From NCBI RefSeq assembly GCF_003391115.1, contig NZ_QTJP01000001.1:248001-312000 (forward strand): DNA of 64,000 bases. Reading direction: 5' to 3'. The notes beneath the pieces are model-generated. The model searched no databases. It saw only the letters and a list, made by a program, of their open reading frames with translations, and was not told where the DNA came from. Positions within the stretch are counted from its first letter, which is position 1. Every line of letters starts with the position of its first letter. Origin of the DNA: Sphingomonas crusticola. GTDB lineage: Bacteria > Pseudomonadota > Alphaproteobacteria > Sphingomonadales > Sphingomonadaceae. The translations under genes and the position numbers were made by a program. Positions 45,259 through 50,689 of the stretch are shown here, piece by piece.

Positions 45259-46659
45259 TCAGGCGAGCGCCGTGAGACGGTCCTTCACCCGCTTCAGATC
45301 TTCGACAAAGCGTCCAAACTCGGCATCCGCCTCATCGCGCTCGTGAATCCGCAGCAAGAAGCTGGGATGGATCGTCGCCCAACCTTCGCTGCCGTCCTCC
45401 AGCCGATGCGCAATGCCCCGGGCGCCACTGATGGTCACCGCCTTGCCAAGCATCTGCCGTGCCGCGGTCGCTCCCAGCGCGACCGTCACAGCAGGTCGGA
45501 TCAACTCACGCTCCTGGCCATACCACCACCGGCAGGCCTGAATTTCGCCGGCATTGGGTTTGGAATGGATGCGGCGTTTGCCACGCTGTTCATATTTGAA
45601 ATGCTTGACCGCGTTGGTAACGTAACTGCGCGCGCGATCGAGGCCGGCCTGTGCGAGCGCTCGATCGAACATCTGACCCGCCGGGCCGATGAACGGCTTT
45701 CCCGCAATGTCCTCCTGATCGCCGGGCTGCTCGCCTACGAACATCAAGCGGGCATCGAGCGGCCCTTCGCCGAACACGGTTTGCGTCGCGTCCTTGTAGA
45801 GCGGGCAGCGCGTGCACCCCATCGCTTCTTCACGCAGCGCTTCCCACGAGCCGGCGACATTGCCTCCCAGATTTTCGCGGCTTGTCGCCACCATCGCGCT
45901 CTCCCGTGCCTGCGCGCCAGCGATCAGGCTGGAGACCAACGCCGTTTCCGGCATGTTTTTCCAATATTTGCGCGGCATTTCCTTCAGCATCGCGCCAATC
46001 TTCACCCGTGCCGGATTGAAGATCGAGGCATAATAAGTCTTCCACGTCTCCTCGAGCGGATCGCCGTCCGGTGCGTCCGCCCGTTGAGCGCCAGGCGCTT
46101 CCCGCAACGTTTCGCCGTCCCAGTGCAGGGACAGTTCCGGGGTCAGGATCGACCAGCGCATCGACGCAAACCGATCAATGAAGAAAGCCGCATTGGCGCG
46201 AACGATGTGGTGGGTGGGCTCGAACCAGGCAACGAAGCCCCGTTGCTCGCCTTCGCCGACTTCCCGAAAACGCAGGAAAGCGCGCATCTTATGGATATCG
46301 CGCCTAACCTCCTTCGCCATGGCTTCTATCCGCCGCAGCAGCGGATCGGTCTGATCCTGGATCAGCAACGGCATAGCGCGCAACCTGAGCAGCATCGAGT
46401 AAAGCAGGCCAAAGCGCTCGGGATCCGAATGGCGGATGGCCGCACGCGCTAAATCGAGAAACGGTCTGGGCACCGAAAAAGGCATTACGCCCGCCACTGC
46501 CGGAGCGGCCCCTCCCGCGGAGGCCAGCAAATCGCCGAACTCATCACCGACGCGCCACGTCACCTCACCCGCCGGCACGCCCGCGCAAGCAAGTTCACGC
46601 GCCTCCAGGCGCCAGCCATCGAAATCGTCTTGGGTGGCAATGGTCGCGACACGCATCAT
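45259..46659 (-). CDS. udgX: DUF4130 (TIGR03915-like) fused to UdgX family uracil-DNA-binding protein
   Basis: 466 aa in two parts. The N-terminal half (about 1-255), starting MRVATIATQDDFDGWRLEARELA, is the DUF4130 module known only as a partner of radical SAM genes. The C-terminal half (about 270-466) is a UdgX-type uracil-DNA glycosylase with GCTRCPLYKDAT (Fe-S Cys pair), GEQPGDQED near residue 309 and the R-loop KRRIHSKP near 358. In UdgX the loop His forms a covalent bond to the deoxyribose after uracil excision, trapping the protein on DNA. The likely start is ATG 46659; a GTG at 46665 is possible. It is the distal gene of the radical SAM operon. Confidence 0.9.
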   Translation of the reverse strand: MMRVATIATQDDFDGWRLEARELACAGVPAGEVTWRVGDEFGDLLASAGGAAPAVAGVMPFSVPRPFLDLARAAIRHSDPERFGLLYSMLLRLRAMPLLIQDQTDPLLRRIEAMAKEVRRDIHKMRAFLRFREVGEGEQRGFVAWFEPTHHIVRANAAFFIDRFASMRWSILTPELSLHWDGETLREAPGAQRADAPDGDPLEETWKTYYASIFNPARVKIGAMLKEMPRKYWKNMPETALVSSLIAGAQARESAMVATSRENLGGNVAGSWEALREEAMGCTRCPLYKDATQTVFGEGPLDARLMFVGEQPGDQEDIAGKPFIGPAGQMFDRALAQAGLDRARSYVTNAVKHFKYEQRGKRRIHSKPNAGEIQACRWWYGQERELIRPAVTVALGATAARQMLGKAVTISGARGIAHRLEDGSEGWATIHPSFLLRIHERDEADAEFGRFVEDLKRVKDRLTALA

Positions 46660-46678
46660 CAGCACGCCGCCATGGCGA

Positions 46679-46810
46679 TCAATCGGTTTCTAAATTTTCC
46701 CCCGCCGTGCGGCCGAAACGCGACGAGAAAACCCAGACCAGGCTCCCACCGGCAATGATCAGCATGGATCCGCCGTAAACTGCCGCAAGCACTCCAAGCA
46801 ACGTCGACAT
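46679..46810 (-). CDS. Small membrane ORF, 43 aa, between the radical SAM and UdgX genes
   Basis: Starts at ATG 46810 after a GGGGGGT stretch. The product has one hydrophobic helix (about residues 4-27, LLGVLAAVYGGSMLIIAGGS), then VWVFSSRFGRTAGEN with a basic turn, so it is predicted as N-out or single-pass with a cytoplasmic tail. Its stop is 20 bases before the UdgX ATG and its start is 113 bases after the radical SAM stop. The operon position supports a real gene; there is no family match that I can name. It could also be untranslated spacer. Confidence 0.5.
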   Translation of the reverse strand: MSTLLGVLAAVYGGSMLIIAGGSLVWVFSSRFGRTAGENLETD

Positions 46811-46922: not shown

Positions 46923-48167
46923 TCATGCCGCGAAGAGTTCCAATTGCGCGGTCGATTTCGCTTCGAGCAGCGGAAACACGCAATCCGCCAGTGCCACCGG
47001 ACGCCAGTCCGCCGCCACAATGAACGGCCGGATCTTTTTGAGGGAAACGGCGAGACGCGCGACGTCCCCGAGTCGCAATGCATGCGTGCGCCGCGAGGAC
47101 AGAATGGCGGCGACCGCCTTGGTACCCAGACCGGGCACGCGCAGCAGCATCTCTTTGGGTGCGCGATTGATATCGACCGGGAAAACTCCGCGAAACTTCA
47201 ATGCCCAGGCAAGTTTGGGGTCCATATCCAGCGGCAGCATGCCATCGTCGCCCGCCGCTGCCGTGACTTCATGAGCGGCAAAGCCGTAAAAGCGCATCAT
47301 CCAATCTGACTGATAAAGCCGATGTTCGCGGATGAGGGGAGGACGCTTTAGCGGCAGGATAGTGCTTGCGTCGGGAATTGGGCTGAACGCGGAATAGTAA
47401 ACCCGCCGCAGCCGGAACTGATCGTAGAGCCGGCTCGCGCTGCCGATGATTTCTGCATCGTTCGCACTGTCTGCGCCCACGATCATCTGCGTCGATTGGC
47501 CGGCCGGAGCGAATTTTGGCGCGGAGCGGTAATGTTTTCTGGCGTCCTGACCATCCTCAATTGCGCCCTTGAGATCGCCCATTGCGCCTTCGATCCGGAC
47601 GCCCGACTTTTCCGGAGCAAGCCTCTTCAGTCCGCTTGCCGTGGGCAATTCGACATTGATCGATAGGCGGTCGGCATAAAGGCCGGCCTGGTGCACCAAT
47701 TCGGGATCGGCATCGGGTATCGTCTTGAGATGGATGTAGCCGCGGAATTGATGATCCTCCCGCAACCGCCGGGCGACTTCCACGATCTGCTCCATCGTGT
47801 AATCCGACGATCGAATGATCCCGGAAGACAGGAACAGTCCCTCGATATAATTGCGCCGATAGAAAGCGAGGGTGAGCTGAACCACCTCGTCTACAGTAAA
47901 GCGTGCGCGGCGAACGTTCGAACTCTTCCGATTTATGCAATAATGACAGTCGAAGATGCAGCTATTGGTCAGCAATATCTTCAGCAGGGAAATACAGCGA
48001 CCGTCGGGCGCGTAAGCGTGACAGATGCCCATGCCGCCATCCGTCGATCCCAGGCCTTTACCATCGCGCGAACTACGCTTCGCGGTACCCGAGGAGGCGC
48101 AGGACGCATCATATTTGGCCGCATCCGCCAGGATCGCCAGCTTTTCTCGGGTGTCGAGTTGCGCCAT
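46923..48167 (-). CDS. Putative DNA modification/repair radical SAM protein (TIGR03916-like)
   Basis: 414 aa. CIFDCHYC (Cys70, Cys74, Cys77) is the CxxxCxxC motif that binds the SAM-cleaving 4Fe-4S cluster. The TIM-barrel core continues through VVQLTLAFYRRNYIEGLFLSSGI and DRLSINVELPTASGLKRLAP. The C-terminal segment EMLLRVPGLGTKAVAAILSS (about 345-365) is a helix-hairpin-helix that binds DNA. The family is linked to UDG genes, but no product is known. Start: ATG 48167 with AGGA five bases upstream, overlapping a putative LexA box; an ATG at 48209 lacks a ribosome-binding site. Confidence 0.9.
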   Translation of the reverse strand: MAQLDTREKLAILADAAKYDASCASSGTAKRSSRDGKGLGSTDGGMGICHAYAPDGRCISLLKILLTNSCIFDCHYCINRKSSNVRRARFTVDEVVQLTLAFYRRNYIEGLFLSSGIIRSSDYTMEQIVEVARRLREDHQFRGYIHLKTIPDADPELVHQAGLYADRLSINVELPTASGLKRLAPEKSGVRIEGAMGDLKGAIEDGQDARKHYRSAPKFAPAGQSTQMIVGADSANDAEIIGSASRLYDQFRLRRVYYSAFSPIPDASTILPLKRPPLIREHRLYQSDWMMRFYGFAAHEVTAAAGDDGMLPLDMDPKLAWALKFRGVFPVDINRAPKEMLLRVPGLGTKAVAAILSSRRTHALRLGDVARLAVSLKKIRPFIVAADWRPVALADCVFPLLEAKSTAQLELFAA

Positions 48168-48169
48168 AT

Positions 48170-48184
48170 GTTCCTGATATGTTC
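48170..48184 (-). promoter_or_regulatory. Putative LexA (SOS) operator GTTC-N7-GTTC
   Basis: The plus strand reads GTTCCTGATATGTTC, an exact match to the GTTC-N7-GTTC direct repeat recognised by alphaproteobacterial LexA. It ends three bases before the radical SAM ATG and covers its ribosome-binding site, so LexA binding would silence the operon until DNA damage. With eight fixed bases a match is expected by chance about once per 65 kb per strand, but this one lies at the head of a DNA-repair-like operon. Confidence 0.65.
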
Positions 48185-48250
48185 GGCCAGCCAAGAAAGC
48201 AACTGGCATCAGCAGTTGACGCGAGAATTCAGGGAGATAGGCGCAGCGCG

Positions 48251-50689
48251 ATGGCTACGATCCTGCGCATATGGCCGATCGCCGCGGCAGTGGTGATTGG
48301 GGCGCCATCACAAGCTACCGTCCCTGAAATCATCGTTACCGCGCAAACGCCTTTGGACGAGAGAAATGGCGCGTTGGGCACTCAGGTAGGCAGCGCCGCC
48401 GACATTGCCGCGATGCATGCGCTCGATCTTTCCGAATATCTCGGGCGCCGCCTGGGCAGCGTCTATATCAACGCCACGCAGAGTAATCCGCTACAGCCGG
48501 ACGTTAATTACCGCGGTTTTACGGCGTCGCCTTTATTGGGAACGCCGCAGGGCTTGTCGGTATTCCTCGACGGCGTGCGCCAGAACCAGCCATTCGGCGA
48601 CGTAGTGAGCTGGGATCTGATCCCGCGAGATGCGATTCTGGTCGTCGATCTGGTGCCCGGCTCAAACCCGCTGTTCGGGCGCAACTCCCTCGGAGGAGCG
48701 TTGGCGATCCATACGCGGGATGGACGCGACGGCGGCGGCACGTCGCTGGAAGCCAATTATGGTTCGCACCGACGCTGGCGGATTGAAGCGGAAACTGCGG
48801 GCTCGCACAACGAAGTTGATTGGTTCATCACCGCTAATCATTTCCAGGAGCGCGGTTGGCGCGATTTTTCGCCGTCAAACGCCGATCAGGTATTCGCGAA
48901 ACTGGGGTGGGGCTCCGGCGGGACGCGGCTGGAATGGTCCGCCAGCTTCGCCGAGAGCGACCTCAATGGTAATGGCCTGCAGGACGTGCGGCTGCTCGCG
49001 GCCGATTACGCCAGCGTCTACACCCAACCAGACAACAGCCAGAACCGCTCCTACGCCAGCACGCTCTCTCTCCGGCACGATTTTGGAAGCGCGCTTACGC
49101 TGCACGGCAACGTTCATTATCGCCATATCCGCTCGCGCACGTATAACGGCGACATCAACGACGATGCGCTGGGGGGAGATTTCTACCAGCCCGACGCGGT
49201 GGAGCAGGGGGCGTTGGCCGCCGCCGGCTATACCGGCTTTCCCGTCAGCGGCGAGACCCAGGATGATGCGCCTTTTCCAAAGTGGCGCTGCATTGCCAAC
49301 ATTCTGCTGGACAGCGAGCCGAATGAAACGTGCAACGGATTGATCAACCGTTCAGCGACCGAGCAACATGACCTGGGCGGATCGGCCGAACTCAGCTGGA
49401 TCACCGGCAATAATCGGCTGGTCGTCGGCGGAACATGGGAGGTGAACCGCGCTCATTTCCGGCAATCTTCGCAGTTCGGCTATCTCACGCCTGCCCATGG
49501 CGTAAACAGCGTCACAGGGCCCGGGGCCTTTGCCGACGGCAGCCAGAATTCCGAGGATGCGTTCGACGCAAGGGCCGATCTTGTCGGCCGCACCGATGGC
49601 GTCAGTCTATTCGCGGCAGACACGCTGAGGCTGCTTCCGCGGCTAAGCCTGGCCATCTCCGGACGCTACGATCGTACGATCATCCGCAACAGCGACGTGA
49701 TCACCCCCGGTGGCGGCCCAGGTTCGCTCGATGGCCACTATCGCTACAACCGCTTCAATCCGGCCGCGACGCTGACGTTTATAGCAAGCCCGACGTTCAC
49801 CGCTTATGCCACACTGGGCCAGAGCAGCCGGGCGCCATCGGCGATTGAGCTTGGCTGCGCGGATCCGGCCAATCCATGCCGTCTTCCCAACGCGCTCGCC
49901 GGCGACCCACCGCTGAAGCAAGTGGTGACTCGCACAGGTGAGCTTGGCGCCCATGGGCGCGTCGCCGGAGTAGGGTGGACCGCCAGCGCGTTCCGCGCTG
50001 ACAATCACGACGACATATTATTCGTCGCGGACGATGCGTCCGGCTTCGGTTATTTCAGGAACTTCGGTCGAACGCGGCGGCAGGGGGTCGAGCTAGGTCT
50101 GGATGCTACACGCGGCCGGCTTACCATGAATGCGCATTACACGTGGCTCGACGCAACCTATCGCACTGCCGAGACGGTCGACGGCAGCGCTAACAGCAGC
50201 AATGACGCCACGGCTCCAGGCTTCGAAGGGGACATCGACATCGATCCGGGTAACCGGATCCCGCTGGTGCCCCACCATATCTTCAAGGCCAGCGCGGCGC
50301 TGCATGTGACTGGCCGCTTCAGCATCAGCGCGGACCTTGTCGCGCAGTCCGGCATGATCGCGCGAGGCAATGAGAATGGCGAGCATCATAGAGACGGCGT
50401 CTATTATTTGGGGTCAGGCCGCTCGCGCGGTTATGCCATCGTAAATCTCGGTCTGGATTGGCGTCGGAGCGCGCACCTCAAATTCTACGCCGAGCTCAGC
50501 AACGCCTTCGACAATCATTATTTCAGCGCCGCCCAGCTTTCCCCGACCGGCTTCAATGCCAACGGTAACTTTGTCGGACGGCCATTTGCCGGGCCGGTCG
50601 TCGACGGCGAGCGGCCGCTCGTCTCGTCCACCTTCTATTCGCCGGGAACGCCGCGGTCGCTCTGGCTGGGCGCGCGCGTTACTTTCTAG
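48251..50689 (+). CDS. TonB-dependent outer-membrane receptor, 812 aa
   Basis: Signal peptide residues 1-23 (ending SQATVPE), TonB-box-like EIIVTAQ, plug domain with DVNYRGFTASPLLGTPQGLSV-type sequence and VDLVPGSNPLFGRNSLGGAL, then the barrel, ending SLWLGARVTF with terminal Phe. It is shorter than the receptor at 3490. Ligand unknown. It diverges from the radical SAM operon (83 bases between starts) and meets the cation exchanger gene tail-to-tail, overlapping it by four bases. Confidence 0.92.
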   Translation: MATILRIWPIAAAVVIGAPSQATVPEIIVTAQTPLDERNGALGTQVGSAADIAAMHALDLSEYLGRRLGSVYINATQSNPLQPDVNYRGFTASPLLGTPQGLSVFLDGVRQNQPFGDVVSWDLIPRDAILVVDLVPGSNPLFGRNSLGGALAIHTRDGRDGGGTSLEANYGSHRRWRIEAETAGSHNEVDWFITANHFQERGWRDFSPSNADQVFAKLGWGSGGTRLEWSASFAESDLNGNGLQDVRLLAADYASVYTQPDNSQNRSYASTLSLRHDFGSALTLHGNVHYRHIRSRTYNGDINDDALGGDFYQPDAVEQGALAAAGYTGFPVSGETQDDAPFPKWRCIANILLDSEPNETCNGLINRSATEQHDLGGSAELSWITGNNRLVVGGTWEVNRAHFRQSSQFGYLTPAHGVNSVTGPGAFADGSQNSEDAFDARADLVGRTDGVSLFAADTLRLLPRLSLAISGRYDRTIIRNSDVITPGGGPGSLDGHYRYNRFNPAATLTFIASPTFTAYATLGQSSRAPSAIELGCADPANPCRLPNALAGDPPLKQVVTRTGELGAHGRVAGVGWTASAFRADNHDDILFVADDASGFGYFRNFGRTRRQGVELGLDATRGRLTMNAHYTWLDATYRTAETVDGSANSSNDATAPGFEGDIDIDPGNRIPLVPHHIFKASAALHVTGRFSISADLVAQSGMIARGNENGEHHRDGVYYLGSGRSRGYAIVNLGLDWRRSAHLKFYAELSNAFDNHYFSAAQLSPTGFNANGNFVGRPFAGPVVDGERPLVSSTFYSPGTPRSLWLGARVTF

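Follow-up and report, generated by a model that had tools for sequence, protein, structure and literature searches.

Does an exact LexA-type box lying against the start codon of a radical SAM gene in Sphingomonas crusticola act as a LexA operator and, if so, which genes does it govern and how? The window, by which we mean the whole stretch of 64,000 nt that was analysed, contains an exact GTTC-N7-GTTC direct repeat close to the start of this gene. The 15-mer GTTCCTGATATGTTC occupies positions 48170-48184, and read on the strand of the radical SAM gene it is GAACATATCAGGAAC. An earlier note on this DNA had reported the box, and its sequence and coordinates are as described there. The same note set it three bases before the ATG; the box does adjoin the ATG at 48167, but the gap is two bases (48168-48169), three being the difference between the coordinates. 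The box and the genes beside it are these:

48170-48184, minus strand: LexA box, an exact GAAC-N7-GAAC, two bases before the start codon.
46923-48167, minus strand: radical SAM protein of 414 aa (NCBIfam TIGR03916, rSAM_link_UDG; Pfam Radical_SAM).
45259-46665, minus strand: protein of 468 aa in which DUF4130 (TIGR03915) is fused to a UdgX-type domain (TIGR03914), both from NCBIfam.

Taken alone, the motif is weak evidence, since matches with at most one mismatch number 27 in the window against a mean of 39 in shuffles, and exact matches number 72 across the genome against 49 for the reversed pattern. The window holds two exact matches, the second of which (50059-50073) lies inside a TonB gene; it falls outside the 34 best-scoring of the 72 genomic sites and was taken as a chance occurrence. 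On a weight matrix built from the boxes of the same radical SAM gene in 168 relatives, which favours that gene by construction, the box at 48170-48184 scores 26.7 and ranks fifth to sixth among the 72.

The earlier note had proposed comparing both half-sites between related sphingomonads, and this comparison was positive. A search of the family found the radical SAM gene over the cut-off in 67 of 99 genomes, the window's own included, and all 67 were examined. An exact box stands upstream of the gene in 65 of these loci, again counting the window, and the remaining two (L102 and L115) have a box with one mismatch. In its GAAC orientation the box ends exactly two bases 5' of the start codon in 52 of the 67, and the rest of the same loci, 237,562 bases in all, contains four exact matches. 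The class and phylum samples contributed over-cut-off loci from 10/190 and 39/249 genomes respectively (own included), and a further 80 named loci, the best 80 among the matches listed, were added to give 192 loci, or 185 after removal of duplicates. The exact alphaproteobacterial box is upstream in 169 of the 185 distinct loci. Another eight lack it and carry an exact E. coli-type box, CTGT-N8-ACAG, which is found in none of the 169; all eight are among 11 sampled loci that come from outside the class of the window. Neither box is present in exact form in the last eight loci, four of which (L102, L115, L186 and L257) have a one-mismatch box, while L152, L166, a Luteibacter-labelled bin (L248) and a Polaromonas-labelled bin (L249) have no box even at one mismatch. 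As controls, no exact box was found in 738 windows inside the radical SAM genes of the wider set, and exact boxes occur at 16 of 1427 other ORF starts of the same loci, many of these ORFs being spurious. It is this conservation, and not the motif alone, that settles that the box is there by more than chance. Because the box over the gene start has been kept in nearly all relatives examined, we regard it as very probably a true switch induced by DNA damage, and a change of operator type from lineage to lineage is the outcome expected under selection for LexA control.

The genes themselves are well supported as a radical SAM–UdgX pair. The radical SAM protein scores 561 bits against a TIGR03916 cut-off of 343.5, and the cysteines of its CxxxCxxC motif (C70, C74 and C77) are invariant across 14 aligned sequences; we take COG4277 to be this same TIGR03916 family. 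In the DUF4130-UdgX protein, TIGR03915 (304.2 bits) and TIGR03914 (196.8 bits) are both over cut-off. The KRRxH loop, which we assume to be a mark of UdgX, is present in the window's protein, and a strict regular expression for it matches in 48 of 72 loci. Of the 182 loci with at least 500 bases of downstream sequence, 169 have a partner-like UDG gene next on that strand, at an estimated gap of no more than 55 bases in 135 of them and at a longer one in 34, including the window, where the gap is 257 bases. The DUF4130-UdgX gene is probably the second gene of a radical SAM operon, and at this distance it may also have a promoter of its own. Within the gap, at 46679-46810 on the minus strand, we noted by eye a small open frame that would encode a hydrophobic peptide some 43 residues long.

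How the box might act depends on the promoter, for which the following elements were placed:

48197-48202, minus strand: weak -35 element TTGCTT, in the same alignment columns as a TTGAC-like block that relatives conserve.
48174-48179, minus strand: -10 element TATCAG, lying within the box and in register with the TATA-like columns (-12 to -9) of relatives.
48166-48168, minus strand: start of transcription, predicted on the A of the ATG or next to it, given the spacing and the absence of a Shine-Dalgarno signal.

The earlier note had suggested this -35 (48202-48197) and -10 (48179-48174), separated by 17 bases, and had pointed out that the -10 would then fall within the box and the message would have almost no leader. 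The positions are correct, and the suggestion is strengthened by conservation of both sets of columns at a near-fixed distance from the ATG. The 52 two-base-gap loci of the family share a TTGAC-like block at columns -35 to -31 (T in 49/52 at -35, G in 46/52 at -33) and, 17 bases from it, TATA-like sequence at columns -12 to -9; both sets of columns are also prominent among 118 loci with a close box. Where six bases separate box and ATG, the top-scoring -35-like hexamer lies at -37 in all six loci; among 102 two-base-gap loci it lies at -35 in 55 and elsewhere in the remainder. In the window a simple score prefers TTGGCT at -27 to TTGCTT, and the latter is therefore a weak -35. Transcription usually starts 6-8 bases from the -10, and the position of the -10 thus puts the predicted start at or beside the ATG. 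The box is also so close to the gene that the start codon is probably where the message begins. Spacing compatible with this (a box-ATG gap of four bases or fewer) is seen in 119 of the 169 exact-box loci; the other 50 do not fit.

Our preferred reading, to which we give a probability of roughly 0.8 from the sequence evidence, is that an alphaproteobacterial direct-repeat LexA operator laid over the -10 represses the radical SAM and DUF4130-UdgX pair until DNA is damaged, and that the resulting message is leaderless. The operator would cover the -10 of a weak sigma-70-type promoter whose start point is on or next to the ATG, so that bound LexA would keep RNA polymerase off. RecA on single-stranded DNA would then bring about self-cleavage of LexA and transcription of both genes, and the transcript would be translated from the AUG at its 5' end.

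Of the competing explanations, the one that survives best, while still unlikely, keeps the LexA operator and supposes an ordinary leader made from a promoter further upstream, with translation through the AGGA at 48172-48175 and LexA acting as a roadblock. In its favour, the distance from the AGGA to the ATG is suitable, the -35 of the window is weak, a strict consensus scan yields no promoter, and some relatives whose box is further from the ATG carry a Shine-Dalgarno-like sequence. Against this stand the -35 and -10 columns conserved relative to the ATG, and the nature of the AGGA, which the earlier note had read as the ribosome-binding site and which proves to be varying spacer sequence of the box, upstream of the predicted start. 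At the 119 close-box starts Shine-Dalgarno pairing (median -3.3, with 17.6% at or below -6) is on a par with that of 3311 internal ATGs taken as background (median -2.9; 16.9%), and for this reason the AGGA is probably not a ribosome site; it probably lies outside the message altogether. Pairing is stronger at the 35 starts that lie 5-25 bases from the box (median -5.0; 37% at or below -6) and intermediate at 15 further starts (-5.1; 27%). A start at the ATG at 48209, raised in the earlier note as the case in which the box would fall inside the coding region, is unlikely because an in-frame ATG or GTG upstream is missing from 70 of 118 close-box loci. The spacing and the background-level pairing fit a radical SAM message that is probably leaderless, with a predicted 5' end at the AUG.

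Considerably less probable is that the divergent TonB receptor (48251-50689) is under the control of this box too, an effect that had been suggested because the receptor starts nearby. Its ATG at 48251 is indeed 67 bases from the box. Shared control is nevertheless unsupported, because no homologue of the receptor lies beside the radical SAM gene in any of the 183 other loci with at least 700 bases of upstream sequence (tblastn, E 1e-8); moreover, the position of the box tracks the start and the -35 of the radical SAM gene, and the strict scan gives no promoter toward the receptor. A chance match, for which the shuffles and the count for the reversed pattern might speak, can be dismissed, since nearly all relatives keep the box in this position and another LexA motif takes over from it outside the class.

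The preferred reading, a LexA operator merged with the promoter, places the pair among other putative members of a LexA regulon in the same genome. The genome encodes LexA (LexA_DNA_bind and Peptidase_S24; L067), with a box 18 bases from the called start, and RecA (L013), with a box 77 bases from the called start. Exact boxes are also found upstream of uvrA, a uvrD-type helicase gene, a dinB-type polymerase gene, an mmcB-like gene, rmuC, a DUF763 gene, ung, pdeM, a photolyase-related gene and an imuA-like gene, these names being taken from Pfam or NCBIfam. The imuA-like gene, named from a below-cut-off match (36.9 of 150 bits), has its exact box two bases before the ATG, a layout like that of the radical SAM gene. 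Across 59 family genomes the pattern box-NN-ATG occurs 125 times, against eight for the reversed control. Eight of the 125 are one identical sequence, which was considered as a LexA site and rejected because the two copies examined (L301, 2188-2274; L302, 2588-2674) are antisense to the end of a tRNA-Leu; this sequence is a trap for counts of the box motif.

Several further boxes were noted in passing. A second radical SAM gene, of the PA0069 family (NF033668; L012, 1539-2621), has an exact box at 1501, 23 bases before its called start, and high-scoring boxes are near an arginase-family gene (L016, 1501), a C-5 cytosine methylase gene (L083, 1459) and a 474-codon frame (L093, 1508).

In some relatives the pair is found in the neighbourhood of mutasome genes. 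Among the named loci, which are the best 80 among the matches listed, a dnaE2-like gene lies on the same strand, 1.4-1.7 kb past the radical SAM stop, in 13 of the 69 with enough sequence (L198, L199, L204, L206, L209, L216, L219, L220, L222, L226, L227, L228 and L231), and imuA- or imuB-like genes lie upstream of the pair in 14 of 71, usually just upstream where a dnaE2-like gene trails it. In L299 the dnaE2 after the pair was confirmed over cut-off, imuA and imuB scored below theirs, and a carbonic-anhydrase-like gene on the opposite strand separates imuB from the pair; by eye, L297, L298 and L300 resemble this arrangement. Elsewhere the radical SAM gene is divergent from imuA-imuB-dnaE2 (Bradyrhizobium, L263 and L264) or from imuA and imuB (L161-L163), with dnaE2 included wherever the sequence extends that far and with one exact box between. 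The pair resembles the imuA-imuB-dnaE2 cassette in carrying a LexA box and, in a subset of relatives, adjoins its genes, but in the genome of the window the imuA-like gene occupies another part of contig C1 (1,155,576 versus 296,165). Position beside imuA-imuB-dnaE2, or a shared divergent box, in these relatives suggests that the pair may work with translesion synthesis.

There is already published work on SOS control of a radical SAM–UdgX pair, covering Bacteroidetes, Verrucomicrobia and Alphaproteobacteria. The text available from PMC8565304 predicts LexA control of COG1573-COG4277 in Bacteroidetes, and cites reports of its SOS control in Verrucomicrobia (Erill 2016) and in Alphaproteobacteria (da Rocha 2008, Caulobacter). 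That operon is the same kind of pair, a UDG-family gene with a radical SAM partner under a LexA box, but in other lineages and with other boxes, and the available text describes no leaderless, box-merged promoter. Extracts from PMC3765255 connect DUF4130 with radical SAM proteins and with uracil glycosylases within the SOS network, and those from PMC9578287 (Table 1) and PMC12700426 give GTTC-N7-GTTC as the alphaproteobacterial LexA operator, for example in Caulobacter; the window box shares its exact direct repeat and spacing, and differs from the Caulobacter operator as there described in abutting the start codon and containing the -10. The accessible portions of PMC7739468, PMC6120978, PMC9380542 and PMC1839093 hold nothing on the promoter of the pair. 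In the literature searched, as far as its available text goes, we found no description of the merged box, promoter and start for this pair, nor of the pair inside a mutasome locus, and the search returned nothing on UdgX together with radical SAM proteins or on leaderless messages with transcription start sites in Sphingomonas. We conclude that the box is very probably a true LexA operator, of a type already known and serving a gene pair already known from the SOS response. What is refined here is the promoter, which is compact, the start, which is probably leaderless, and the linkage to the mutasome that some relatives show.

A broader proposal, on which we are evenly divided, is that in sphingomonads and several other alphaproteobacteria the -10, operator and ATG form one compact unit giving a LexA-gated leaderless message, a layout that the imuA-like gene shares, and that the mutasome linkage reflects joint work of the pair with translesion synthesis. 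The proposed start makes a sharp prediction, namely a damage-induced transcript beginning at 48166-48168. The comparative data support a place for the poorly understood radical SAM–UdgX cassette in the SOS response of far more species than the few for which it has been reported, with an operator type that changes along with lineage, and the links to mutasome neighbourhoods offer a lead on its function. If our reading is true, DNA damage would in these bacteria switch on repair messages that are translated without a Shine-Dalgarno sequence.
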